A DNA stretch of 26,140 bases from a virus, in the IMG/VR virus record IMGVR_UViG_3300032241_001383, positions 1 to 26,140 of that record; one strand, written 5' to 3'. Shown piece after piece: positions 2,520-26,140 of the stretch. Position numbers and translations under genes: made by a program. The first letter of the stretch is position 1, and the number at the start of each line of letters is the position of its first letter. The notes beneath the pieces are model-generated. The model ran no database searches. It saw only the letters and a program-made list of their open reading frames with translations, and was not told where the DNA came from.

Positions 2520-5426
2520 CTAAATTGATTCTTGGGCTACCGACAGCGCCTTGACGATCGCTTCATCGGGTGCATTCAGTAAAGGCTCAGTCGTCTTGTC
2601 AGTAGCCTTCTTGGCGTTATCGGCAAGCTTCATCAATTTGCCAACCAGCATCTCGACTTTGTCAGCCCGTCCGCCAGAAGCGCGTTCGATGCGGCCGCCA
2701 TTTGCTTGCTGGGAAATTCTATGCGGTGCGTTATAGGGTAGGCTGAAGAATGTATGGTTACCAATATTCTTGCCTTCGCCCTGAGCCCAGTTTGGAAGTT
2801 GCTCTCCGCGACGCTTCATTTCAAATTTGTTGATGAAATGAGTTGCACCATTAGTGGGATCAGGCAAATCTCCACGCATCGCCGGAAGCACAATGTCGTT
2901 TTTGACATGCTGATACTCTTTGCTATTTGGGTCTATAGCATTTACGGACCCATTGCCAACGGACTCAAATGCGCTAGGGCGTTTAATCACGTTTGGAATT
3001 GACTCTCCAGAAGACTTTGCCCTGTTTAGTATCACATGAGCAACGGCCGCTTTTCCGGTATCAGCCTCTTTTCCTGCTTCTGCAAGGATTGTTCTTGTCA
3101 TCAAATCATTTGGATCTGATGCATTTGCAGATGGCGATGTAATCTTTGGCCTTGAAGATTCATCGGAAGGCAACATGTACTGAGATGGAAGCAAAGATTG
3201 ACCGCGAATAGATGCGTCTTTAATTGCTCTTGCTGTTTTATCAATAAATGATCTGGCATTAGGATTTGTTGCCGCAAGCTTGCCAAGTTCTGCGGTTTTG
3301 GAGGGATCGGACATTAAATCAACGACTTTAGAAGCGATTCTGCTTTCTGCAAAATTATATACGCCCTTAGCAGCAAGCGCAGAAACCAATCCTCCAGAAC
3401 CAATGGCCGCAGCGCCAATAGATGGAAGATGCCCATGAAGTATGTTCATTAGGGTATCGTATCCAGCAACACCTAAAAGCGCCCCTCCTCCAACACCTCC
3501 ACCAACAAGCGTTCCCATACTGATTCTAGGAGCGCCAGTCACAGGATCTGGCGGTTTCACTTTTGAAAGCATGTTTTCAGTAACTGCTTTTCCCATGATC
3601 GAATTAAAATTGTCTTCCCCCAAAGCCATTTTCATTCTTTGAGAAACTGCAGGAGTGTCCAAGTTACGCAACATCCAAGACAAAGCATTTGGATCATTTT
3701 GTAATTTAGTTCTTAAAGCACCAGCCGCACCTTGAGCAAATAAGTTGCGTTGTTCTAGACTTAATTTTTTATAGTTGTTTACAAATTCAGTAGCATCAAA
3801 ATCGTTCATCCGCTTAAGAGCGCTTTGACCAGCCTCAATTGCGTTGCTTTCGCCAAACGCTTCGGAAGCGGCATCACGAGCGGTTTCGTATGCTGGAACT
3901 TGTTCGTCTATTGCACTGACAAGACGGTTTTGAAGATCCGTAAGATCTTTTCTTCTTTGACCAGTTGCATTTCTAAGCTCGTCACCAATATAAGTTTTTA
4001 CACGATGCCAATAGTTTAAATTCGGGTACTGCGGAGGAGCACCAGGCACTTTTGTATAACTCGCAGGATTCCCGCTTTCATCAAGAATAGAACTTGGGAC
4101 AACTTGATCTGCAGTACCCGGACGGTAAGAAACTATGTTTAGTTTTGGATCTGTACCAGATCGCTCTGCGTCTCTTCCAGCAGCTTTAATATCGTCAATG
4201 CCAGAAAGCTCTTCAAGCTCCGGGCTCCATACGCTAGAAGCTTTAGGATCAGTTCTAGCTAATTTGTATAGTCTATCGACGTTGGCTTTATTCAAAGCCC
4301 CAATTTTTTTATCAAGCTCTCCCGGACCTTCAGATCCGAAAAGGCTATCAATATGATTTGAGACATTTGCGGCGGCGGCTTCTTTTCTAGCTTCCATAGC
4401 TTTTTTCAAAGCGCCAACTTTTGCTTCTACGTTGTTATTTAAATATCCGTATCGCTTTAGCAAGGCTCGGGTCGTATCACCGGCCATGTCAAAAATGGTG
4501 GGCTCCTGCCCATTCCGAATAGCGTTGTTATATTCGTCAATCGTCATGTTTGCTGAACCGTTTCTAAACTCTGACGATAGAGAATCTAGAATTTTTCCTT
4601 CAGCAACAGCATTTGGCATAGACAGATAACCAACCGCATCTGCTATTTTGCTGGCCCCCATGCCAGAACCAACGGCACCTGCCAAACGAGCTATGACTTC
4701 TGCAGATGGCGTTTCTGGCAATAGTTGATGAGCAACAGTGCCGGCCACTTCTGACCCGACTCCTGCTGCACTCCCAGTAAGCGCTCCTCGAGCAACTCCA
4801 CGAAGAGATCCAAGAGTTTTACCAAGGGCGGATGTTTCAGAAATTAATGGACCAGCGCCTTCAGTAAGCATGGCGGGAGCCGCGACACGCGCTGCGGTTC
4901 CAGCTATCTTTCCCGCGCTGGTTTGAGGTTCATATTGCGTAAAAGGCAGTTTTTCTTGAATAAGTTTTTGCATTCCGGGTTGCGTAAAATCTACGCCGGA
5001 ATATTCCCCAATTCTTTTCAATAAATCTGCTGTTCCAGTTACAGGATTAATTTGAGATATCAAATCCAAAGCTTGCTTAGTTCTTTTTGCAACGTCTGGA
5101 TCGGCCTTCTGTAAGGCATAGTCAACAAACTTACCTGTCAATCCTCTAGATACATCCCCCATCGTTTGAAGAGTGGTGGGAAGATCTGCCGTTACCCCGA
5201 GAGTTCCCTGAGATGCAATACTTCTAGCTATATCTTCGCCAACACCAACTTTAGGTCTTGGCGTTTCTTCGATAATGCTTCCTTCTGCCGGAGCGGCCAC
5301 GGTAGGACCCCTAGAAGGATATCTAGGTAGTCTAGAAGGTCCGGTTGAAGTTTCTGTCTGGGGGGCAGATTCCCCTTCAATGACATCGCCTTCTTTCGGA
5401 AATGTGTTGTCATTCTGCATGGGCAT
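2520..5426 (-). CDS. Giant ejection-type virion protein with C-terminal SleB-like cell-wall hydrolase
   Basis: 968 residues; ATG 5426 has AAGGTG just upstream. The N-terminal 90 residues are Pro/Thr-rich and disordered, followed by long Ala/Gly/Lys-rich helical regions. A hydrophobic Gly/Ala-rich stretch at about 633-685 could cross a membrane. Residues about 770-895 match the cell wall hydrolase SleB family: [20 protein letters not shown] followed by LNRAKSSG, with likely catalytic Glu783, then THFI and [10 protein letters not shown]. The extreme C-terminus carries two GGR motifs ([14 protein letters not shown]) and a Lys-rich helical tail. A large helical protein with a wall hydrolase is expected for proteins ejected into the envelope to let DNA through. 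It follows the other giant protein 12 bases downstream. I am confident of the hydrolase fold; the ejection role is inference from size and position. Confidence 0.8.
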
Positions 5427-5438
5427 AAATCACCTTAC

Positions 5439-8400
5439 TCAAAGGTATTTGATGATTTTGTACTGAGGATTGCCGGTATCAGGACTCAATCCCATGTACA
5501 TGACGCGAGCAGGTCTCGGCAGTTTTAAGCCGCTTATTTGATTAGGCTCCAGAATGTATTCGTGATTGGGCTTCATGTCTTGGTAGCTGCTGACATCCCC
5601 TTTCACGGCAACATGTTTTCTTTCTTCATCAGCAAAATCTTCTTGCTTGTAATAATTGTTAAATTCTTTCTCAAAAGTCTGTTTGTCAAACAATTGATTA
5701 TGTGCATTCCTGTGGTTGTAAGCTTCATCGGAATGCTTTTGGTCAAAGTCCAAAGCGCCAAGAGCTTGCGAAATAATCTCTCGGTTTGCCTTTGGATCCA
5801 GTTCTGGATTAGCCGTTGCTCTTTGGAATCCCTGTATCTCTGCAACCTTGGCCGGCCCAGACAAAGTAGAAACGTCATTAAACACTTGGCGCATCATCCC
5901 TTTGACAAATTCATCGGCCGCAGCCGTGTCTCCGGGGCCGATTTTAGGAACATCAAAGCCTGCAGTTCTTAGCCACCCTGCTGCATTAGCAAGCCATTCT
6001 GTTCCGCGTCCAGACTGGTAATTCTCAAGAACCGTCCGCAGCATATTGAGGTTGGCTCTGGCTTTTTGCCTTGCTGCGTCCTGAGTTCCAAGTTCGTCGA
6101 AGAACTTAGCATTCTCAGGCGCATTTGCATTGAGATGAGCAACTGCAGCAGCTTGCGGATTAAAAATCTTGTTCCCGTTTTTGTCTATTCCATAAAAAGT
6201 TTGATCTATTGCTGCCTGTTCCTGATTTGCACGGCTCATCAATTGCTGATAAGTGGCCGTGTCATTTGGATTTGCCAAAAGAGCTTGCTTTGCTCTTTGT
6301 CGCAGGACAAGAGGATTTTTGTCATCCGCTAGTTTCGAATAAAAATTAGGATCAGGCGTTGTGGCTTGAGTGTAAACGTCATTAGGCTTCTTAATTTTTA
6401 CAGTTTCAGGCGTTGACGATGTTGGCCCGGTTTCCGTAGTTACCGCAGAAACGGCTTGGGGTATGTCGGCAGTAATTACCGGCTTGTTTGTCGGAACATT
6501 TTGTCCTTGAGCAGTTGCCCCTGAAACAGGAGTTTGTTGCTGAACGCCAGACGTTTCCGATGGGTACTTCCCAATCGCGCTTATATCTCCGCCTCCAAGC
6601 TCTGTGATTCGCTTATCAATAGCAGCAATCTGAGCTTTCAGAGACGGATCAATTGCGGCTCCGGTAACGGAAGAAGCCGCCATTTGTGCTTGCATCCACC
6701 TACGCGCCTCAAGCAACCGAGCGAGTGTCGCGTTATTAGCTTGCTGCTGGGCAATCGCAACACGCTGTTTCTCATAATCCATTTGACGAGTCTGCAAGCC
6801 AATTTGCTGTTGGGCTTGCAAACCGGAAGCAAGGCCCTGAGCGCCAGACGCCAAGGCAACGCCAAAATGTTTGGTCGGCGCAGTGCCCATCGCTGCAAAA
6901 AATTGCAATGCGGGAATGAGATTTTCTTTTTTAAAAATATCGTTTGCCAAAAGTTTTTGCATGAAACCTTCGGTAGGTTTTTGGACCTGTGTGTCTGCAA
7001 TTTGCTTTGAGGGAGTAGCCGTATCGGCTTGGGCAGGCATAGCAGCGCCAAGACCTTGTTGTGCGCCGCCTTCAAAACCAGTTCCTGCAATTGGCTTCTT
7101 GCCGACGATATCAGGCAAGTTACTAACATCTGTTCCGGTTCTTGCGCCAAGACCGACATTTTGGGGGATCGCCGTGGCGTCAGATCCTTTGGTGAAATAG
7201 TTCGGATCAGTTAAAGACGCTAATGTATTTTGATCATCCGTACTCTGATCGGAATCGCCACCTACCCCTCCTTCAGCATATCCATGACGGCCACCAGCAA
7301 CGCCGCCGCGTGAAGCAAACATTGCTGCTAAATTAGCAATGCTTTCTGCCGTAGACGCCATCTGGCTCAATTGACCAAGCCCAGACTGCCCTTGCCCCGG
7401 CAAAGCTGCTGGGGTCAATTTGTTTTCGTTCTTGGATGCTTCGATGTCCAAGCCTTTCGGCTTTTCGGTATACGGGTCTGGATTTTCATTAGCATAGGGA
7501 TCTATATCCCCTCCGCTTTCATATCCGTAACGACCAGCAAGTCCGCCGCTCGCGTAATGATGAGCGCCTACTACACCGCCCCTATAATCAGCTTCTGGCT
7601 CTGGCTCTTCATTGGCAGCAGAATTCGCATCTGTTTTCTGTTGTGCAAAAGCTTGTTGAATCATCGCGTCAGATTCATCACGCCCCATTGTCCCCGCTGA
7701 CAATCCTAAAGATTTAACATCCTGCCCTTCCTGAGACGCGGCTGCTCTGGAAGCAATGTCAGATTGCATTGCTTCGTCTTTTAAGTCTTTAATCATGGAG
7801 GATGCTTTGCCGGCAATTTTGCTTCCGGTTCCGCTTAAAGACCCAATAGACTTCGCCGCCTCATCAATGTTTTTGACTTGTTCTGCAGGAGTCGGCCCCG
7901 GCTTTGGAAGAGAAGCAGTTTGCAAATGCGCCGCAGGCATCGAAGTCGTCGGTACATATCCCTGCGCGCCGCCATGCGGAGGGCCGCCAGCCAGACCGCC
8001 GTAGGCGGTAGGGCCACCAGCTCCGACGTACATTTGCTGCTGCGCCTGAAGAATTGAAGCTAGATCCCCCGGACTGATCAAGCTGTAATCAGATAGGCCG
8101 CCCGGACCAGTCGTAACGGAAGTCGAATACCCGCCGCCCGCGTACCCGCCGCGAGCGTAGGCTTCGCCGGCATGGCCGAGGCCGACATGGCCGCCCATGC
8201 TGCTACGCTCAGAGTCTTCGAGCGCCTTACCGTAATCGACGGTCTTGTACCCACCAGCAAGCCCGACGGCTTCCGGGTGATGCTTTTCGACATCCTGAGC
8301 GATAAGACCCATCTGAGTACGATCGTCACCGTCCATCTTGTACGAATAGATCGGCTGGCCGTCATGCGTGTGGCCGACTTCCTTGATGTCGCGCTTGAGG

Positions 8401-9308
8401 CGCTCATCTGAAAAGAAGCCACCGGGCTGCGTGCCTGTGGTGGTAGATCCAGACAGTGCGCCGGTTCCTTCCGCGATACCGGCAACGAAATTCGCCACCT
8501 GAAACGGGTAGCTCTGCTGCTGCAGGAATTGGTTGTACAGAGCGGTCTTGCCGGCCTGTTCTGTCTGCTGCTGCAACTGACCTGCACCGATCTGAGCCTG
8601 AGCGCCCTGAAGCGCGGCACCCTGAGCACCAGCGCCCAATGCCGCCAACTCTTGTGACGTTCCAGCGCCCTGCTGGTATCCGAGGTTGCCGATATTGGCA
8701 AGCTGGTTTGCGCCAGCGAGGCCGATCTGCTGCTCGCCCATCGCCGTTTGCAGGGCTTGGTTATAGCCCTGATTCAGGATGTTGCTGTAGATATTGGCAT
8801 TCGCAAGATTCTGCTGTTGATTCAAATTCGCAGCCGCAATACCAGCACGGTCGCCACCAAAAGCACCAGATGAAATCGCATTGCCTAATTGCCCCGCCAT
8901 TGCCTGTTGATTTTGTTGGTTCAGGAGTTGTTCCTGACTTCCAAGTACCGTACCCAAGTATGGGCTGAGATACTGGTTGATTTGCTGCCCAGTAAGCGGA
9001 GCAGAACTGGCTGCAGTTCCAGACTCGGCCATCGCATTAAGTGGCTGAGTGTTACCGTATGCCCCCATCAGCGTATTGGTGGCGGCACCGAAGTACGGTT
9101 GGGCTTGATTGGCGGCGGCGTTAACGCCGCTGATGCCTGTACTTTCTTGTGCGTTGACGGGCGCGACAAATGCGTTTGGATCAGTCGAGTACTGTTGAAA
9201 TGGTTTCTCGGCAGCAGTCTGAGCCTGCGCGTTGACGCTGTTGTACCGAGCCAGTACCTCCGGCGGGATGGTAACTTGACTGGTGCTTTGACTGCTTTTG
9301 CCGCCCAT
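5439..9308 (-). CDS. Giant ejection-type protein with an internal peptidase_S74 (endosialidase chaperone) domain
   Basis: 1289 residues, ATG at 9308, three bases after the GNAT gene stop. Residues 1-290 are rich in Gln, Asn, Ala and Gly with long helical repeats (QQNQQ, GAQAQIGAGQLQQQ). Residues about 297-365 read FFSDERLKRDIKEVG, IYSYKM, TQMGLIAQDVEKHHPEAV and YKTVDYGKAL. This is the intramolecular chaperone (peptidase_S74) domain; Ser300 and Lys305 keep the spacing of the K1F Ser-Lys dyad that self-cleaves before the Ser. Three Gly-rich segments follow, at about 383-393, 573-600 and 664-683. The last 400 residues are mixed helical with a charged end. S74 domains usually end fibre proteins, so more than 900 residues after the domain is odd. 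GC is higher in the 5' part than in the 3' part. Role as an internal/ejected virion protein is inferred from size, Gln/Ala-rich helices and neighbours. Confidence 0.78.
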   Translation of the reverse strand: MGGKSSQSTSQVTIPPEVLARYNSVNAQAQTAAEKPFQQYSTDPNAFVAPVNAQESTGISGVNAAANQAQPYFGAATNTLMGAYGNTQPLNAMAESGTAASSAPLTGQQINQYLSPYLGTVLGSQEQLLNQQNQQAMAGQLGNAISSGAFGGDRAGIAAANLNQQQNLANANIYSNILNQGYNQALQTAMGEQQIGLAGANQLANIGNLGYQQGAGTSQELAALGAGAQGAALQGAQAQIGAGQLQQQTEQAGKTALYNQFLQQQSYPFQVANFVAGIAEGTGALSGSTTTGTQPGGFFSDERLKRDIKEVGHTHDGQPIYSYKMDGDDRTQMGLIAQDVEKHHPEAVGLAGGYKTVDYGKALEDSERSSMGGHVGLGHAGEAYARGGYAGGGYSTSVTTGPGGLSDYSLISPGDLASILQAQQQMYVGAGGPTAYGGLAGGPPHGGAQGYVPTTSMPAAHLQTASLPKPGPTPAEQVKNIDEAAKSIGSLSGTGSKIAGKASSMIKDLKDEAMQSDIASRAAASQEGQDVKSLGLSAGTMGRDESDAMIQQAFAQQKTDANSAANEEPEPEADYRGGVVGAHHYASGGLAGRYGYESGGDIDPYANENPDPYTEKPKGLDIEASKNENKLTPAALPGQGQSGLGQLSQMASTAESIANLAAMFASRGGVAGGRHGYAEGGVGGDSDQSTDDQNTLASLTDPNYFTKGSDATAIPQNVGLGARTGTDVSNLPDIVGKKPIAGTGFEGGAQQGLGAAMPAQADTATPSKQIADTQVQKPTEGFMQKLLANDIFKKENLIPALQFFAAMGTAPTKHFGVALASGAQGLASGLQAQQQIGLQTRQMDYEKQRVAIAQQQANNATLARLLEARRWMQAQMAASSVTGAAIDPSLKAQIAAIDKRITELGGGDISAIGKYPSETSGVQQQTPVSGATAQGQNVPTNKPVITADIPQAVSAVTTETGPTSSTPETVKIKKPNDVYTQATTPDPNFYSKLADDKNPLVLRQRAKQALLANPNDTATYQQLMSRANQEQAAIDQTFYGIDKNGNKIFNPQAAAVAHLNANAPENAKFFDELGTQDAARQKARANLNMLRTVLENYQSGRGTEWLANAAGWLRTAGFDVPKIGPGDTAAADEFVKGMMRQVFNDVSTLSGPAKVAEIQGFQRATANPELDPKANREIISQALGALDFDQKHSDEAYNHRNAHNQLFDKQTFEKEFNNYYKQEDFADEERKHVAVKGDVSSYQDMKPNHEYILEPNQISGLKLPRPARVMYMGLSPDTGNPQYKIIKYL

Positions 9309-9311
9309 AAC

Positions 9312-9833
9312 TTAATGCTCCGTTCCGTTCTCGTGCCACTTCCCGGTCTGTGCCCCATACAGGAAGAAAGCGCCGCTCGGGGGTCCGAATTGTCTTTCGT
9401 ACATACGGACCTTCGCTGCGGTTCGGCTGTTGGACAAAACCCCGATAATCAGTGGAATTCCAAGGGTGTCGGCCACCTTTTTGCTGAATTCGCACAATTG
9501 TTTTGCCCGACCGCCTTTTGCGCTGCGAAACTCAGGGTAAATGAAAATGGCCTTTTCTTCGACTACTAGGCTGTCCGAATACCACATATTTCCGATTCGG
9601 AGCAGCACCAGACCTTCTATTTTCCCACCCGGCTTGCCAATAACGGCACAAATGCCGTGATCCTGATGCAAAGCAGGCCAGATTTCTGCCGCTAATTTCT
9701 GCGGATTCGGGTTCAAAAACCCGTTTTCTTCACACGCAGACATGGCAAGCGCCATGATCTCGTCCATGTCTTCCGGCGTGGCGACACGGATTTTCAAGTC
9801 GGTAGCAGCAGCAAGGTTCAATTCTTTAGTCAC
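9312..9833 (-). CDS. GNAT-family N-acetyltransferase
   Basis: 173 residues from a GTG start at 9833, overlapping the end of the preceding gene by eight bases. After a short leader, [16 protein letters not shown] (about 15-30) is the usual GNAT opening. Residues 88-113 ([20 protein letters not shown] and on) carry the beta4 strand and a Q/R-x-x-G-x-G/A-type acetyl-CoA pyrophosphate loop (RSAKGGRA). [20 protein letters not shown] (128-147) matches the C-terminal half of the fold, ending with FFLYG. GNAT proteins beside glycine-motif and giant ejection proteins are common in podovirus-like late operons. The substrate is unknown; it may modify a virion or host protein. Certain of the family, not of the target. 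Confidence 0.88.
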
Positions 9834-10440
9834 GCTTTGGCCCCGGGAGGTTTTTAAGGGTTTTAATGGTTTTCGCTCGATACCGCTTCACAAACTCATC
9901 CAGCACTTTATGGCCCAATTCGAGATCTCCTTCCCCGATCGTCTGGACCTGTTCCGGGGAAAGCACATATTCGCCACCCGCCGCGACGATCGGAACCGCA
10001 TCCACCCGACCGCCTTCAGCATGGCCCTGTACGCTTTCCCCGTAGGGCCCGGCGCCCCCGCCGTAGGGGGTTGCGCCGCCGCCGTAGGGAGTCCCCCCAA
10101 ACATCCGGCGCATATGCTTGAAACCGGCCATCGTATTCCCTTCCCCCATAGCCGAAATAATGTCCGCAGGGACCACATAGCTCCCGGACGGTACATGCAT
10201 AGGCAGATGGTCCGTGCGGCCCGCCACGGGGCTGTGGATCGGCCCTACATGCAATTTCGCGCCTACCTTGGGCATATGGACATGGGGCATTTTGGGCGGA
10301 TGGAAGCCGCCTCCTGCCTGTGTCTGCCGGGCAGTATTCAGGGCAGCCGCGACGGCCTGATCCTTGGGATGCCCCGCATGGATCATTTCAGCAATATTGG
10401 TGCTGATCGTTTTTTGAGATTTTCCGGGTTTCAGGGGCAT
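9826..10440 (-). CDS. Conserved phage protein with glycine motifs, partner of the GNAT
   Basis: 204 residues, ATG 10440 with GAGG upstream that overlaps the previous gene's stop. Residues 1-38 ([20 protein letters not shown], then [16 protein letters not shown]) form a small basic helical motif seen at the start of many phage and phage-like proteins. A His/Pro-rich linker follows, then [20 protein letters not shown] and a tandem PYGGGA segment (about 115-132). The C-terminal part has [20 protein letters not shown] and a basic end, [17 protein letters not shown] know this protein type from podovirus-like genomes next to a GNAT gene but not its function. GC content is clearly above that of the two genes upstream in the operon. 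Confidence 0.8.
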
Positions 10441-10447
10441 ACCAACC

Positions 10448-10789
10448 TCACGAGTAACTGATGGTCACGGCCTGACCCGTTCCCGGCGCAACGAAGATGC
10501 CGTTATTGACAGGCATATTCAGAACAACGACGCCGATTGTAGTTGGAATGGCAAATATTGGGTTTGTCGTTGAGCCTGCCGAATTAGCGTCATAAATATA
10601 TCCCGCTGCGGATCCGCCGTTAATGATGCTGATCACTCCAACTCTTCCAGAACCAGACTTAATCAGTGTCGCGGCAATGATGTTCGCCTGATTCTGGGCG
10701 CCCATCACATTTAAATAAGTATTGGCAAGGCCGTTAATAGCCGTAACTATATTTTTGGCTGTTGTCAGGATATCGGTTAAAGAAGCCAT
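10448..10789 (-). CDS. Small putative virion protein (113 aa)
   Basis: Starts [20 protein letters not shown] at ATG 10789 with AAGG eight bases upstream. The first 40 residues form an amphipathic helix; the rest is beta-rich and Gly/Ile/Val-rich ([37 protein letters not shown]) and ends [13 protein letters not shown] helix joined to a small beta domain fits a decoration or fibre-base protein, and I have seen this type in other podovirus-like late operons, but no function is established to my knowledge. It lies between the glycine-rich fibre and the glycine-motif protein. Confidence 0.72.
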
Positions 10790-10803
10790 TAAATTAGCCT
10801 TGC

Positions 10804-11601
10804 TTAAAAACTATAGTAAGTAAACGCAATCGCACCGGCAGTCCCTGATTGACCATAAACATTAATTCCGTCTGGCGTTGGTCCACCGCCAACACCATAT
10901 CCACCACTGAAATAATCAGGAAGCGTCAACCCGGGAATCCCGCCAGAAGCAGCATTTCCGTTTGTTCCTTGAACAGTAAAATCTTTTGGACCAACAGATG
11001 TAAGAAAACTTGCGGTTCCGCCTTTGCTGCACTGATCAGGTCCGTAACCGCCGTAATTAATCCAAGCCCAAGGACCAAACCCTTCTGTTGCTTCGCCGTC
11101 AAGAGAAGTCGGGGTGTTTGGATTAGGGTTATCGTTAATTTGTAAAATAGGTGTTTGTGTATAAGGGATTGGATAATCGTTGTAATATAAAATTGCTACT
11201 GGGACTGGAGATCCACTTCCTCCGCCATATCCTAAGTAAGGATTGTAAAACCCTCCTGTGCCAGATCCGCGCAAACCATAACTAAAAATTTTTCCCGTAT
11301 TTACCGGAAATTTGTATTTATAAATATAAGATCCTCCTCCGCCACCAAAAGCAACAAAAGTTCCTTCAGGAAATCTAGGGTAAGGCAAATGACCTCCAGA
11401 ATCTGGTAAGTTTTGAACTGTTCCAGCACCGCCTCCGGCTCCTGCCGCTAAAATTTCAATTGTGCAGTATTTTGCATTTGGCAATGGAAGGTCGCTAACA
11501 CCTTTATCATTTCCATTGCCTACAAGACCGTAATAGACATTTCTGTATAGAAACCCAGAGTCATTATTCGGTTCCAAAGATCTTGACATAAAAAGGTTCA
11601 T
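10804..11601 (-). CDS. Glycine-rich fibre-like virion protein
   Basis: 265 residues from ATG 11601, which overlaps the stop of the upstream gene as ATGA; a longer frame up to 11631 would intrude into that gene. After a 40-residue leader, KYCTIEILAAGAGGGAG opens a glycine-rich beta domain of the type seen in phage fibres and adhesins. Gly clusters are spaced by aromatic residues throughout (GGGGGSYIYKYKF, YNPYLGYGGGSG, GGYGVGGGP). It closes with GTAGAIAFTYYSF, which parallels the ends of the fibre at 24209 and the remnant at 23304. The role is probably surface display or receptor contact. Low GC compared with the genes after it. Confidence 0.75.
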   Translation of the reverse strand: MNLFMSRSLEPNNDSGFLYRNVYYGLVGNGNDKGVSDLPLPNAKYCTIEILAAGAGGGAGTVQNLPDSGGHLPYPRFPEGTFVAFGGGGGSYIYKYKFPVNTGKIFSYGLRGSGTGGFYNPYLGYGGGSGSPVPVAILYYNDYPIPYTQTPILQINDNPNPNTPTSLDGEATEGFGPWAWINYGGYGPDQCSKGGTASFLTSVGPKDFTVQGTNGNAASGGIPGLTLPDYFSGGYGVGGGPTPDGINVYGQSGTAGAIAFTYYSF

Positions 11602-12143
11602 GCAAACCCCGTCAAGAGCGTGGCATACCAAAAATTAGTACTTGATCGATATGTTGCTACTAACAAATCAACAGCATTTGCTCCCGTAGATAGCACGCCA
11701 GCAGAACCATTGGCCCATTTAAAACTTGACGGCCAAGTAATAGTTCTATTACCCGTTGCATCTTGCGTAATAAACCAGTTAATGCATTGACCATCTGATG
11801 GATTAGAAAGTGTTGGAGCAACAGTTACATTTGCCGTGAATGTGGTTGAAAAAACATTAGACGCGGCGCAATTAACTGTCATCGATGTTGGGCTAAAAAC
11901 AACATTAGAAATAGGGGTTGCAGCGCCTCCGGGCTGGGTAACTACTCCTGTGGAATTGTTGAAAGTCATTGTGGATCCGGCAATTGCAGATCCGTTTGTA
12001 TAGAGAAACTGAGTATTAGAACCGCCAACGCTAGGAGAAGGTCCTGTAGGACCAGTAGGACCAGTAGGCCCTGTTCCTCCGCCGCCGCCAGCAGCAAAAT
12101 CGGCATCTATGTACGGATTTCCTATTATGTAAGGAACGGACAT
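11598..12143 (-). CDS. Fibre-like protein with short collagen repeat
   Basis: 181 residues. ATG 12143 overlaps the upstream TGA by one base (TGATG). Residues 18-36 hold a Gly run followed by [11 protein letters not shown], a short collagen-like Gly-X-Y stretch. The remaining 140 residues are Thr/Asn/Ser-rich and beta-structured: GGSNTQFLYTNGSAIAGS, then SNVFSTTFTANVTVAPTLSN, DGQCINWFITQDATGNRTIT and WPSSFKWANGSAG, ending FWYATLLTGFA. The DGQ...W.I.QDATGNRTITWP pattern is one I know from C-terminal heads of phage fibres. A trimeric minor fibre is the likely form. It is translationally coupled on both sides. Confidence 0.78.
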   Translation of the reverse strand: MSVPYIIGNPYIDADFAAGGGGGTGPTGPTGPTGPSPSVGGSNTQFLYTNGSAIAGSTMTFNNSTGVVTQPGGAATPISNVVFSPTSMTVNCAASNVFSTTFTANVTVAPTLSNPSDGQCINWFITQDATGNRTITWPSSFKWANGSAGVLSTGANAVDLLVATYRSSTNFWYATLLTGFA

Positions 12144-12319
12144 CAGTTAACAAACCTTATCCATTGATTAATGGTCGATGGGGAAGCTTCTAATCCTAAT
12201 AAAATTATTCCAGAACATGTCCCGTTTGCAGCCGCCGGGCTGCTTAAGCCGGCAGGGCCGGTAGGCCCAACAGGCCCTTGCGGTCCCGGAGAAACGACTT
12301 CAATAATTTTGCATGCCAT
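12143..12319 (-). CDS. 58-residue collagen-motif mini protein
   Basis: A short gene that fills the space between the tail hub and the collagen-motif fibre exactly. Its ATG (12319-12317) overlaps the hub stop TGA by one base, and its own TGA (12145-12143) overlaps the next ATG by one base, so three genes are joined by TGATG couplings. The product starts MACKIIEVVSPGPQGPVGPT, giving four Gly-X-Y triplets at residues 11-24, and ends with a small Trp-containing tail (STINQWIRFVN). The tail resembles the end of small beta heads of fibres. Function unknown; it could be a minor fibre or assembly partner of the next gene's product. Confidence 0.72.
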   Translation of the reverse strand: MACKIIEVVSPGPQGPVGPTGPAGLSSPAAANGTCSGIILLGLEASPSTINQWIRFVN

Positions 12320-14472
12320 CAGAATTTACCGTCTTGCTGGAAACGATATCGGATGTTTCCGATACGCCAGAAGCTGTTCAGATCTTCGCTTTCCAGCTTT
12401 ATAGACACCAGACGACCTCGAATTCTAGGCGTCAAAAAAGTGGTGTTTACGGTCATTGGATACGGGCCATATGCAATCGGAGTCTGGCCCGCATAATCGG
12501 TTGCATAAAAAGTAAGATTGACGGTTGCATTTTGATCGCCGCCATACAATCCCCATTTCATGTCAGGCCAGACTTGATCGATAAATGTCTTGAGGTCCGC
12601 TTCGTTAAGCGCGAAATACCCGGTCTGAAAGCTTGACACCATCGGCGATGTATCTGCATTGAACAGATAATTACCGTTATTTGATTCATGCTGATAGAGC
12701 TGAAGAGTGTTTGGATCAGACCCAATAGGGGCGCCTAAAACAGACTGATCAACCCATGCGGAACGAGCAAGGTTTCCAAAATCCCACTGCTGCAGAACTA
12801 CGTTGAACTTGACGTAAGCATTGATCTCTCCGCTATTGCTGAGAGTCGGGTAGTACCAAGTGATTTCTCCAAAACGAGAATTGACAGCAACGCGAATTTT
12901 GTCGAGATTGCTGGTATCGAGATCTTGGAAGATGACATCCCAGACGGGACAAAATACCGGCTGTATTCCTGAGCCGGTCAAGCTGAAGAATTGGCTTGGA
13001 CCCATCCAGTAGACGACACCGTTGACGCTGGCCGCCGCTTTTCTGGCGATCAGGCCGCATCCCGTACCAATTTCGTTGAACGAATACACATACGGAGGCC
13101 CGATGTATTGCATGGACCAGCAATCAATGTCTGTCCAGATAATGCCTTGCTGCGGACCCTGAATTGCTCCAACGATTTTGGACCCTTTTGGAATGCGATA
13201 AGAGCCCGCTTGATTGGTGACAAGGGGTATCCAACTATAAAAGTTGTTTACGTCGCACCATCTGACAAGCAAAGGATCTTGAACGCCTGTTTCGGTAGAT
13301 CCCCAAGCGATAATTTGCCTTTGAGGCATTGCGACAAATACGCCATCGTTAACTGGTGGCGCAAAAGGAATGATGGTTGCCTCAGAGGCATTAGATGTCG
13401 GATCCCATTGGTAAATGGGTTGGAATTGAGGTGTTCCTGTAGGAGGAGGATTGATGGGGCAACTGATTAAAATTTGACCCCAGTTATCCATCGTCCAGTC
13501 ATTTGCAGAAATAGGGTCGCCAGAAGCAGGGTTTAAAGTTTCTCCGTAACCGTATTTCCCAAAACCGTAATGCCCTAAACCATATCCTGAATAGAACGCC
13601 TCAGCTCCTTTTCCGAAGCTGTAAATCAAATAAGCTTTGTCGGTGTTACCGATATAAACATTTGCACTGGCAGGAGATTGCACAATGCTATTGATAACAA
13701 AATTGTTTTGATTGACAACCGATTGAACAATGTAGTTACCGTACAAATAAATCGGGCTTCCGATGCCATCACTAATGTCAGTTTGGACTAGTATTGGATA
13801 AGTGCTTCCTTGCGAATAACCATGATTTGGAAGCAAAACATTAACGGCAACAGCGCCTGCCGTCGTAGTGAACTGGGCGATGGAAGCAGAAGAAGAAGTA
13901 GAAGTTGCGTAGTTGGGATTACCGAGGATTGTCAAAGCTTCAACGTAATACTGCGTTGAATTGAAAATTACTACATTAGGATTGCAAGGGTAAAGACCAA
14001 ACAGCACAATTCCACCAACGCTGATGTGCGTTGCAATGTATACGGAATCGTATTGGGTAATCGGCCCGACAGTAGTGTCGGTAATGACGACAAGAGAACT
14101 TCCTGAAGTGGTAGAAGCTTGAGGAGGGATTTGGTTGGTCAAAGATTTAGGAGTGATATCGGTGTAGTTTAAGCTTGGGTTACTACCGTCTATAACGCCA
14201 AGAATCGACCTACCACTTTCATTCTCTGTACCAAAAGCCAAACGGCGCACGGCATTTGTGTCTTCCCACGCCCACAGGTTTCTAATGATGGCGGGGATCC
14301 CTGTAGACCCCAAATAATACTTTATCCACCCGCCAAGTTTCTGAATCAATCCAATGCCATTACGATCTGGAATAAACCTGATCAAATTGCAAGTAGAAAT
14401 ACCCGTTGTATTAAGAGCGGGTGTTTCGTTCTGATCTACTCCGGGAATCAATTTTACTGATGCGTGAGGCAT
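12319..14472 (-). CDS. Tail hub / DNA stabilisation protein (P22 gp10-like)
   Basis: 717 residues, ATG 14472 with GAGG upstream. It starts MPHASVKLIPGVDQNETPAL and goes on with LIRFIPDRNGIGLIQKLGGW, the usual opening of phage tail-hub/stabilisation proteins. The middle is beta-rich and looks like a propeller (GLGHYGFGKYGYGE; SANDWTMDNWGQILISCP). Then comes PQRQIIAWGSTE, WCDVNNFYSWIPL, the segment GSYRIPKGSKIVGAIQGPQQ, and YWMGPSQFFSLTGSGIQPV, the most conserved part of these proteins. It forms the tail tube or nozzle under the portal and adaptor. The adaptor gene lies just upstream, six bases away, as expected. I am sure of the broad role, less sure whether it is closest to P22 gp10 or T7 gp12. 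Confidence 0.8.
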   Translation of the reverse strand: MPHASVKLIPGVDQNETPALNTTGISTCNLIRFIPDRNGIGLIQKLGGWIKYYLGSTGIPAIIRNLWAWEDTNAVRRLAFGTENESGRSILGVIDGSNPSLNYTDITPKSLTNQIPPQASTTSGSSLVVITDTTVGPITQYDSVYIATHISVGGIVLFGLYPCNPNVVIFNSTQYYVEALTILGNPNYATSTSSSASIAQFTTTAGAVAVNVLLPNHGYSQGSTYPILVQTDISDGIGSPIYLYGNYIVQSVVNQNNFVINSIVQSPASANVYIGNTDKAYLIYSFGKGAEAFYSGYGLGHYGFGKYGYGETLNPASGDPISANDWTMDNWGQILISCPINPPPTGTPQFQPIYQWDPTSNASEATIIPFAPPVNDGVFVAMPQRQIIAWGSTETGVQDPLLVRWCDVNNFYSWIPLVTNQAGSYRIPKGSKIVGAIQGPQQGIIWTDIDCWSMQYIGPPYVYSFNEIGTGCGLIARKAAASVNGVVYWMGPSQFFSLTGSGIQPVFCPVWDVIFQDLDTSNLDKIRVAVNSRFGEITWYYPTLSNSGEINAYVKFNVVLQQWDFGNLARSAWVDQSVLGAPIGSDPNTLQLYQHESNNGNYLFNADTSPMVSSFQTGYFALNEADLKTFIDQVWPDMKWGLYGGDQNATVNLTFYATDYAGQTPIAYGPYPMTVNTTFLTPRIRGRLVSIKLESEDLNSFWRIGNIRYRFQQDGKF

Positions 14473-14478
14473 CTCAGA

Positions 14479-15261
14479 CTACCTCGAAGGAGTCGCAACA
14501 GGAGAACTTGAAAGAGAAGACCACGCAGAAGCTTGGAATTTCTTACGACCTTCTTCACCGGCCGCTCCGCGCACCAAAGCCTGATACTGGCTTTCATAGC
14601 TCTGAGCCATTGAGGGATCGTCGCTCATGCGCCCAAAGTTACGCTGATAGGCGCTGATATAGATCATGCTCGCCATGATCAAAAGATCAGGAAGGTATGC
14701 GCTAATGAACGTAGTCTGCGTCGATGCGTCAGTGCCGTTATCAGAAAACTTGTACAAAGTAGGCAGTCTTTGAACGCCACGAATAGTCAGCGGATAGTCT
14801 TGGTCTGGATATGGCCCTACATAAATGTTGTTGTAGGTGTTGCCACCAGTCGATGCATCTCCTCCGGCCATAGCAAAATACTTTGGGGGGGCCCATACAG
14901 AACTGTCATTAAAGACATTTTGCAAGAACTCTTTGGTTACCGGGTAAAGAGGAACTTTAGTCGTCCCATCAAGGTAGGTAATCGTCTGAACGGTTACAAA
15001 ATCGTTGACGGAAATGCTCAATTCATTGTTGCCGGCCGTTAGTGAATAGCTGGTGTTCAGCGTCAACGCCGGCAACAAATCAAGATCACGCTGAATACGC
15101 AACTCTGCGTAATTCAGCATCTGAGGGATAATTGCATCAAAAGCAGGGTCGTTATTACCAACAACAATACCACCTACGGTCGTTGTATTGACGACCGCCA
15201 TTGTGCCGATCTGCGTGACATACCCGTTATAGGTAAGCGGAGTCGTGTTGGGGGTACTCAT
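14479..15261 (-). CDS. Head-tail adaptor (SU10-type)
   Basis: 260 residues from ATG 15261. The N-terminal region has a helix (DAIIPQMLNYAELRIQRDLD, about 43-62). A beta part follows (NELSISVNDFVTVQTITYLD). Then YPLTIRGVQRLPTLY and YLPDLLIMASMIYISAYQRN lead into a helical, polar tail ending in Ser/Pro. This order (helix with YAELRIQRDLD, strand block, R..RLPTLY, LP.LL..A..Y...Y..) is typical of the SU10-type adaptor placed between portal and tail tube. The tail-hub gene follows directly. A second, gp4-like connector is found at 21064-21789, so two ring components may be stacked in this tail. Confidence 0.78.
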   Translation of the reverse strand: MSTPNTTPLTYNGYVTQIGTMAVVNTTTVGGIVVGNNDPAFDAIIPQMLNYAELRIQRDLDLLPALTLNTSYSLTAGNNELSISVNDFVTVQTITYLDGTTKVPLYPVTKEFLQNVFNDSSVWAPPKYFAMAGGDASTGGNTYNNIYVGPYPDQDYPLTIRGVQRLPTLYKFSDNGTDASTQTTFISAYLPDLLIMASMIYISAYQRNFGRMSDDPSMAQSYESQYQALVRGAAGEEGRKKFQASAWSSLSSSPVATPSR

Positions 15262-21063: not shown

Positions 21064-21789
21064 TTATGGCCTGAAATAACTTGCGATTGTTGGCGATATA
21101 TATTGTTGTGCCGTCTCGACATTTTGTCTCGCGGCTATGTCATAAGATTCATCAGCTAATGGTTTTAATATAGATACTTTTTCTGGTGCCCAAATCATTG
21201 CCAACCGTTGGGCCAATCCGTAAGCAAACGCCTCCAAGAAATAGTAGGGAATCTCGACCTGCTGGCCGTTGTCGAAATTGGAGTCCTGAATCTGCCTGAC
21301 GCGGTAGTACTTGAAGGCGCTTTGGGTGCCATCCGGCACAGGCCAAAGAGTCACGGTCGGTGACAGAAGGCGATCAAACCAGAAGGTCGTCGGAAATCCT
21401 TGCTGCTTCTTGTTGGGATATGAAGCGTATTCTGTACGGCTGATCGGCAAGATCAGGCGGTCAATCAGGGCTCCCCCGCCGTTCTGGACGATGTAGGCAT
21501 CGAGCATCACGATCGTGTTGGACGGGACGCTATAGGTTGAGCATCCCTGTACAAGGGGGATCGTCTGAAGGTCTACCGTCCAAAGATTGACGCCTTGAGA
21601 CGACCAGCGCCCCAGCATCATGTTGGAGGCCATCCGGGCGGCCTCCATGTGCTCTTGCAGGAGGGATGTTGGCCTAAAACCACAAAGGTTGTAGGCGTAC
21701 AGGACAATCTCGCCAAGGCCGGGGGCAAAAGCGTATGTGCCGCTTGTGTTGCTGACGGCGCTTACATTATTGCCATTCCCGTAAGCCAT
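21064..21789 (-). CDS. Head-tail connector / tail accessory factor, P22 gp4-like
   Basis: 241 residues, ATG 21789 with AAGG upstream, two-base gap from the glycosyltransferase stop. Starts MAYGNGNNVSAVSN, then LGEIVLYAYNLCGFRPTSLL followed by EHMEAARMASNMMLGRWSSQ, the helical part typical of P22 gp4-like accessory factors. QTIPLVQGCSTYSVPSNTIV, then RLILPISRTEYASYPNKKQQ, and FPTTFWFDRLLSPTVTLWPV make up the beta part. The C-terminus is helical and ends YISPTIASYFRP. It would form the ring under the portal that stabilises packaged DNA. The gene is GC-rich relative to the fibres that follow it. The match to the gp4 type is from remembered features. Confidence 0.78.
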   Translation of the reverse strand: MAYGNGNNVSAVSNTSGTYAFAPGLGEIVLYAYNLCGFRPTSLLQEHMEAARMASNMMLGRWSSQGVNLWTVDLQTIPLVQGCSTYSVPSNTIVMLDAYIVQNGGGALIDRLILPISRTEYASYPNKKQQGFPTTFWFDRLLSPTVTLWPVPDGTQSAFKYYRVRQIQDSNFDNGQQVEIPYYFLEAFAYGLAQRLAMIWAPEKVSILKPLADESYDIAARQNVETAQQYISPTIASYFRP

Positions 21790-21790
21790 T

Positions 21791-22855
21791 TTAGGCCGCC
21801 TTGAGGTCTTTAGTTATTGCCTCCAGATTAGCCCGTAAACGGGGGTCTTCTGGCTCCAGTTCGACCGCATCCATAGCATGTTTCTTAGCAGAATCATACA
21901 GCTTTAGATTCCATGCCGCTATAGCAGCCAGATCGTGGGGTTTTGCTCCCCAAACAGACGGATCGATCGTGTAAACCAGCTCCCGATCCTTGATGGAAAG
22001 GCAGGTCAGAGCCGCCCCGTAGCACTCCGCCCAGCGGCTGGTCAAATAACAGGCCATAGCCAGCTCGCACCACGGCTCGCGGGTATGGGGGGCCTCTGCG
22101 GTAGCCTTACGGAGCCAATGGAGGGCATGTTCCATATTCCCCAGCTCCTGATAGCACTGGCCGATGACCCGCATGGCGTAGCAGCGTTCGTTGATCCAAG
22201 TGGCCCTAGGAAGGGCCAGATACCGCTGGCCTTCGTCGATAGCCTTCTGCCATTGCCCGTTGAACCGAAGCTCTCTGGAATAGTAAAAGGCGTTCCGGGG
22301 GCAATTAGGGTCTTCCTCGACGCTGACCCGCAAAAGGTCTAAGTATTGGCCGCGAGACTTGGTCGGATCCGGCTGGTGGACGACCAAAAGCTTGTTCGTA
22401 TCGACGTACTTTTCCTCGATACGGTCAGGGACCGGGTACTCATGGCAAGGGTGATGCCAGCGGTAGCCCTTACGGGCATGGATCTTTTCGTAGGGGAAGG
22501 CAATCCCCATTCCCCAGTCAAAGTGATAACGCATCCGGGTCGTGCCCGGGACCCAAATACGCTCAATCTCTTCACGCCATCCGGGCTGCAAGACTTCATC
22601 GAGGTCCAGACTCACGCAGACATCGATATCCGAAGGCAGCATGTGCAAGGCTGCGTTTCGAGCATCATCAAAACGCCACGGACTGATATAGATGTGGCCG
22701 ACCGTTGCGCCGTTGGCTTCGAGGATCTCAACCGTCTTGTCATATGATCCGGTATCGGCGACGAAAATAAGGTCAGCATCCTTGGCTGCCTTACAAAAGC
22801 GTTCAGCAAATTTCTCTTCGTTTTTGCTAATTGCGTATACGGCGATTTTCAACAT
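21791..22855 (-). CDS. Family 2-like glycosyltransferase fused to TPR repeats
   Basis: 354 residues, ATG 22855 with AGGT upstream. The N-terminal GT-A-type half has AVYAISKNEEKFAERFCKAA, ADLIFVADTGSYDKTVEIL, PWRFDDARNAAL and SLDLDEVLQPGW, where Asp84-Leu-Asp86 is the DXD metal/nucleotide-sugar site. About 110-175 has HFDWGMGIAFPYEKIHARKG and WHHPCHEYP, a His-rich acceptor-side region. The C-terminal half (about 190-350) is made of TPR-like helices (YYSRELRFNGQWQKAIDEGQ; CYQELGNMEHALHWLRKATA). Such GT2-TPR proteins are known in phages with decorated virions. It probably adds a sugar to a virion or host surface component; the acceptor is not visible from sequence. It follows a strong terminator by only 36 bases. 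Confidence 0.88.
   Translation of the reverse strand: MLKIAVYAISKNEEKFAERFCKAAKDADLIFVADTGSYDKTVEILEANGATVGHIYISPWRFDDARNAALHMLPSDIDVCVSLDLDEVLQPGWREEIERIWVPGTTRMRYHFDWGMGIAFPYEKIHARKGYRWHHPCHEYPVPDRIEEKYVDTNKLLVVHQPDPTKSRGQYLDLLRVSVEEDPNCPRNAFYYSRELRFNGQWQKAIDEGQRYLALPRATWINERCYAMRVIGQCYQELGNMEHALHWLRKATAEAPHTREPWCELAMACYLTSRWAECYGAALTCLSIKDRELVYTIDPSVWGAKPHDLAAIAAWNLKLYDSAKKHAMDAVELEPEDPRLRANLEAITKDLKAA

Positions 22856-24208: not shown

Positions 24209-26140
<1,932 letters not shown>

Follow-up and report, generated by a model that had tools for sequence, protein, structure and literature searches.

What does an S74 domain do in the middle of a very long virion protein? Self-cleaving domains of this type are known to check folding at fibre ends, and MYRF has one inside the chain that acts as a release switch. 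The window analysed here is the whole IMG/VR virus record IMGVR_UViG_3300032241_001383 (26,140 bases), and the protein in question is encoded by a 1289-residue open reading frame (ORF) at 5439..9308 on the minus strand. An earlier note on this DNA had placed an S74 chaperone domain in the interior of this ejection-type protein and proposed that cleavage at the domain may yield two proteins. We describe the ORF as two ejection proteins, A and B, joined in the layout A-S74-linker-B. In our view its S74 domain probably cleaves the chain at the predicted scissile bond between Phe299 and Ser300 (8412/8411, minus) by means of a Ser300-Lys305 dyad, the predicted products being A and S74-linker-B.

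The S74 domain and part A

The domain call was confirmed by a Pfam search, in which Peptidase_S74 (PF13884) was found at residues 300-348 with an E of 6.9e-8 and 33.1 bits, above the gathering score of 22. The minimal domain extends over residues 300-371 (8196..8411, minus). The segments FFSDERLKRDIKEVG, IYSYKM and MGLIAQDVEKHHPEAV are present in the ORF together with Ser300, the predicted nucleophile (codon 8409..8411, minus), and Lys305, the predicted general base (codon 8394..8396, minus). The spacing of five between them, which the earlier note had compared with that of K1F endosialidase, is the dyad spacing of K1F (Ser911/Lys916), MYRF (Ser587/Lys592) and T5 (Ser1264/Lys1269) (PMC8326128, PMC4690869). 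The interior position likewise held, with 924 residues downstream of residue 365 (more than 900 had been claimed) and 917 after residue 372.

When a family S74 profile was used, domain scores of members with an internal S74 were about 99-128 bits, and the best of 2000 shuffled versions of the window protein reached 15.3 bits, so the match is not due to chance. PF13884 was matched independently by all 104 aligned S74 copies. Ser300, Asp301, Lys305 and Gly334 are 100% conserved in 107 distinct copies (internal, terminal, first and second), which are kin gathered with a profile favouring the motif and thus do not represent 107 independent events; homologues lacking Ser or Lys were looked for, and none was present among these copies. 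Most other positions of the domain are variable while Ser, Asp and Lys are strictly invariant. The ratio of nonsynonymous to synonymous substitution rates (dN/dS) is lowest in the gene for S74 (0.067, a rough value measured against the relative L001 with synonymous sites near saturation), followed by 0.095 for part A, 0.10 for part B and 0.25 for the linker.

In an AlphaFold2 model built with 77 homologues, the S74 core is a small alpha/beta domain with a predicted local distance difference test score (pLDDT) above 90, and in a further model the pLDDT was about 80-87. For the S74-only model, the best Foldseek match was the MyRF ICA structure 7dc3 (probability 0.63), with no match under E 0.001; the comparison of 7dc3 with the predicted core gave a VIA Z of 4.6 (66 aligned, root-mean-square deviation 3.9), which is above unrelated rows and below Z 5. 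A phmmer search of PDB with the single S74 sequence gave no true S74 match. The family S74 profile matched GA-1 3gud in PDB, stopping at residue 79 of 129, and the RecA and ThreeFoil rows of the same search were rejected as repeat artefacts.

Part A (residues 1-299; 8412..9308, minus) contains 51 Ala and 47 Gln, in agreement with the Gln/Ala-rich N-terminal portion of roughly 300 residues noted earlier. PHROG 4287 (DNA ejection protein) matches residues 2-362 with an E of 2.1e-13, the alignment beginning at residue 2, and PHROG 6121 (virion structural protein) matches residues 129-364 with an E of 1.2e-19. Since both profiles, each 392 long, end with S74, residues 1-365 standing alone are a known kind of virion protein. 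Part A belongs to the podoviral ejection-protein family of PHROG 4287/6121 and takes the position of P22 gp7. P22 gp7 itself is PHROG 598 and has no S74 match; PHROG 598 was matched over the N-termini of two S74-bearing split relatives, PAE2_13 and gp17 of the Pseudoalteromonas phage H6/1, which are the only cases of the gp7-S74 link, and the window protein had no direct match to PHROG 598 among its PHROG matches. Part A is predicted to be all-helical, with long helices at residues 16-33, 53-85, 107-146, 152-191 and 203-285 of mostly moderate confidence in the AlphaFold2 model. No known fold is assigned to it because Foldseek with the A+S74 model gave unspecific helical matches only.

Split and fused ejection genes in relatives

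The reason for the interior position becomes clear from relatives in which the two proteins are separate. Thirteen phage records, most of them cultured, have a separate S74 gene with the domain at or very near the C-terminus and with the pattern S-D-x-x-x-K in each: phiGT1, pCB2047-C, RHph_N2, EBPR podovirus 2, ppBeUSDA76-2, PAE2, Mx8, vB_OspP_OH, phiM5, Salmonella phage 7-11, H6/1, CRP-212 and MW202496. In nearly all of them the next virion gene begins within a few bases of the stop of the S74 gene, and in several an acetyltransferase-like gene precedes it. The frame of B is in register with the A gene in ppBeUSDA76-2, RHph_N2 and a Chlorobiaceae contig; in Chlorobiaceae phage CV-1-33, A has 294 residues without S74 and B follows in the same frame past one stop.

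Part B of the window protein (residues 786-1289; 5439..6953, minus), a second ejection protein, corresponds to this next gene. A profile made from fused C-terminal ends only, with the split phages held out, matched phiM5_29 (E 1.3e-5) and, in the Chlorobiaceae contig, the gene that encodes B separately (E 8.7e-7); both phiM5_27 and phiM5_29 are listed in the phage particle proteome according to GenBank notes. B begins with a conserved motif (residues 789-850; 6759..6944, minus) that 75 of 84 fused tails contain and that is weakly matched (E 7e-3) close to the N-terminus of the separately encoded Chlorobiaceae B. One fused tail, L066, has its last approximately 45 residues in common with the genes lying downstream in ppBeUSDA76-2 and EBPR podovirus 2. 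From these three lines of evidence, the fused gene consists of A-S74 plus B, connected through a fast-evolving linker that is variable and rich in Gly-Gly (residues 372-785; 6954..8195, minus). The S74 domain is therefore interior because two ejection genes are fused behind it. Part B also has a conserved C-terminal domain (residues 1057-1228; 5625..6140, minus), and a PHROG search of residues 781-1289 gave no match, including to P22 gp20 (phrog_917). Lytic-domain matches of the L050 and L064 tails (to phiGT1_18 and others) were not counted as evidence that B is homologous, given that domains of this kind move from gene to gene. We also considered and rejected an internal start for B at Met371, upstream of which the DNA lacks a clear ribosome-binding site.

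To define the fused family, IMG/VR and GTDB contigs were searched using the entire protein, A+S74 and part A by itself as queries. This gave 128 distinct members, 87 of them with a complete 3' end, among which 60 have one internal S74, 16 have two, 3 have a terminal S74 and 8 have none (7 fused members in 5 lineages and one short A only). The homologues with the same internal position that the earlier note had suggested seeking thus exist in number: an internal S74 is found in 76 of 83 complete fused relatives, including the 16 with two copies, and a median of 917 residues follows the last S74 in complete-ended members. Because S74 itself was part of the query in two of these searches, its loss is at least as frequent as the counts show; the A-alone search still returned mostly S74-bearing members.

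The ORFs with two S74 domains include L007, L015, L027, L046, L057, L065, L070, L073, L074, L077, L080, L088, L097 and L111, with the Ser-Lys pair in both copies. The second copy lies downstream of the first, within the linker region of the window protein in the L007/L015 alignment. A single old duplication of S74 was not supported, since the second copies do not form one clade in the S74 tree. The phages of L006 and L008 encode a second S74 protein as well (L006:7574 and L008:12867, plus strand); it has 369 residues, its C-terminal S74 is of another type, and it is probably a fibre.

Proposed cleavage and competing explanations

The following course of events would account for these data. In a split ancestor, A at the P22 gp7 position would already have carried a small removable S74 at its C-terminus, and loss of the stop codon after A-S74 would have brought the neighbouring ejection protein B (about residues 786-1289) into the same chain; we infer fusion rather than fission as the direction. 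The S74 core would cut the translated chain before Ser300 using Ser300-Lys305, at a time that may be linked to assembly, and would leave A (299 residues, about 30.4 kDa) and S74-linker-B (990 residues, about 104.5 kDa). The A protein would be the same as in split phages, with S74 kept on B instead of lost, and the fusion could be tolerated because this A would still be freed. Equal amounts of two ejection proteins would result, and tandem S74 copies would give three pieces. Both A and B are presumably packaged and ejected. In fused lineages without S74, an uncut chain or another protease may also serve.

Studied S74 proteins lend further support to cleavage. Since a change of Ser to Ala abolishes cleavage in T5 pb1 and MYRF (PMC4690869, PMC8326128), the invariant Ser-Lys pair points to retained chemistry. 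In the crystal structure of the T5 pb1 Ser-to-Ala mutant the fold is kept, so Ser is not needed for folding (PMC4690869); that it is so strictly conserved suggests a catalytic role. Processing in itself would be nothing odd for an ejection protein, because host OpdA removes 20 N-terminal residues from P22 gp7, and a host enzyme has been suggested to cleave P22 gp20 (PMC8954989). The two-protein interpretation of the earlier note is the most likely one in that S74 lies where the ejection genes are separate in relatives, while the cut, its site and its timing are predictions.

Several observations weigh against cleavage. Studied S74 domains cleave as trimers via a C-terminal coiled coil, such as T5 residues 1371-1394 or the leucine zipper of MYRF (PMC4690869, PMC6972908, PMC8326128), and leucine-zipper mutants of MYRF fail to cleave (PMC6972908). 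In the fused family, Gly-Gly is reached at a median of 14 residues past VDY, with neither a C-terminal coiled coil nor a tentacle hairpin present, and the AlphaFold2 model has no ordered helix beyond residue 371 and so lacks the helix of a trimeric coiled coil. T5 and K1F also use an Arg from an upstream triple beta-helix (PMC4690869, PMC8326128), which is absent here: upstream of S74 neither a triple beta-helix nor a beta stalk is predicted, and the model gives helix 203-285 and a low-confidence Ser/Thr/Gly stretch without strands. The C-terminal position in the chain that is typical of K1F/T5 fibres is not found in the window protein either. Because coiled coil, tentacle hairpin and upstream beta-stalk are all missing, the domain is a minimal S74 core of about 70 residues and falls short of full membership in the class of trimeric chaperones. 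For the same reason cleavage is less certain than the dyad alone implies, and trimerisation, which the earlier note had offered as an alternative function, is weak and not supported as the main role. In addition, the fused lineages without S74 (L009, L011, L017, L129-L131 and L174), in which A runs directly into the Gly-rich linker, show that the fusion can persist without S74 cleavage.

Among the competing explanations, the strongest is that the fusion is never cut, with the S74 core retained to help one long ejection protein fold, pack or oligomerise and with Ser and Lys being structural. The missing triggering parts and the five fused lineages that do without S74 speak for it, but it leaves the strict invariance of Ser, Asp and Lys amid variable positions hard to understand, particularly as Ala can replace Ser in T5 with the fold kept (PMC4690869), and an oligomerising role is no better supported since the helix that drives MYRF trimerisation is absent. 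We consider it unlikely, although it is the most serious competitor. That the domain is an inactive remnant of the gene fusion would agree with its loss in several fused lineages; a dN/dS that is the lowest of the gene, and a dyad invariant across very divergent phages and kept in second copies too, make this highly improbable. Hardly more credible is a trimeric tail fibre or tailspike, as which several databases name such proteins. Split homologues are annotated as "tail fiber domain-containing protein" or "putative tailspike protein", and the window protein has a weak match to the tail-fibre PHROG 1980, but part A is predicted all-helical and belongs to ejection PHROGs, the gene order is that of P22 14-7-20-16, and S74 appears to be the sole basis of the fibre-like annotation. 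Joining of two genes by an assembly artefact or frame error, conceivable as A and B are in frame in some split relatives, is refuted by the same long ORF in dozens of independently assembled contigs, including contigs of metagenome-assembled genomes and the circular record MW202675.

Self-cleavage at Phe299-Ser300 in a fused ejection gene therefore remains our preferred explanation. A more far-reaching form of it, which we put forward tentatively and hold to be possible but doubtful, is that a reduced S74 core (about 70 residues) lacking the elements for trimerisation acts as a self-cleaving junction in an ejection polyprotein. It would be a protein-level stop codon yielding equal amounts of two proteins (three with tandem copies), perhaps in step with assembly, and the first demonstrated case of an S74 that cuts with no coiled-coil trimer formed.

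Gene neighbourhood, known systems and meaning

The neighbourhood of the fused ORF is that of a podoviral ejection module. Directly upstream is an acetyltransferase-like gene (9312..9833, minus; P22 gene 14 position), and downstream is the gene of a 968-residue cell-wall hydrolase (2520..5426, minus; PF07486 at residues 787-894; P22 gp16 position). A P22 gp10 or tubular tail B-like protein (PHROG 3287), whose gp10 assignment is by position in relatives, is encoded at 12319..14472 on the minus strand. The order of tube B/gp10, acetyltransferase, A, B and hydrolase genes is common to the window, MW202675, phiGT1 and P22, where it is 10-26-14-7-20-16. Small fibre-like genes (10448-12143, minus) sit between the gp10-like gene and the acetyltransferase/ejection module; several split relatives such as phiGT1 have none there. 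Short Gly-Gly motifs are common to the neighbouring virion genes 2520-5426, 5439-9308 and 9826-10440, all minus.

Other genes of the window were also noted. SU10_adaptor (Pfam) was matched by two different genes on the minus strand, 14482-15261 (E 2e-16) and 21067-21789 (E 9e-8), giving two adaptor-like tail proteins in one phage. Among the structural genes there is a glycosyltransferase with TPR repeats (21794-22855, minus; PHROG 13126, E 1.5e-101), which may modify glycans of the virion or host surface. The gene at 24209-26140 (minus) encodes collagen-like repeats running off the end of the record and then a very Gly-rich domain, and is probably a fibre gene.

The closest known proteins are the S74-terminated ejection proteins of cultured podoviruses (PHROG 4287/6121), namely phiGT1_17, RHph_N2 EVC05_012, ppBeUSDA76-2 WAX24423, Salmonella phage 7-11 gp20 and Pseudomonas phage PAE2_13. 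They have the same position in the structural operon, a short S74 core and the invariant dyad, and that of ppBeUSDA76-2 has the N-terminal domain in common by profile; in them, however, S74 comes last and B is a separate gene, whereas in the window B is fused behind S74. K1F endosialidase, T5 pb1 and the GA-1 neck appendage (PF13884) have the same core sequence with Ser and Lys five apart, but carry a tentacle hairpin and/or C-terminal coiled coil at trimeric fibre ends, K1F and T5 using in addition the upstream triple beta-helix; none of these is found in the window protein. The MYRF ICA of animals and Dictyostelium MrfA, the best structural match of the predicted core, is likewise internal and splits one chain into two functional parts. 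It differs in having a coiled coil, a beta-helical stalk, a DNA-binding domain and a membrane anchor, and in cleaving as a trimer. P22 gp7-gp20-gp16 and T7 gp14-gp15-gp16 resemble the window in gene order and module, with the gp7-type N-terminus in the two S74-bearing relatives mentioned above; their genes are separate, and P22 gp7 has no S74 and is processed N-terminally by a host protease.

S74 in ejection proteins is thus already known from databases (PHROG 4287/6121), and an internal self-cleaving S74 from MYRF (PMC3742443), so that S74 is not confined to fibre ends as had been supposed and also caps ejection proteins in many cultured podoviruses. In the open-access papers that were searched we found no description of S74 in ejection proteins, nor of a family-wide fusion in which a minimal S74, internal and in some members doubled, lies at the junction of two ejection proteins.

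Many environmental phages have a compact S74 where two DNA-ejection proteins are fused, sometimes twice per chain, and this accounts for the database label "tail fibre" on internal virion proteins. If the chain is not cut, some other cause must be sought for the strictness with which the dyad is conserved. If it is cut, the gene product is an ejection polyprotein, and S74 catalysis would be independent of a coiled-coil trimer.

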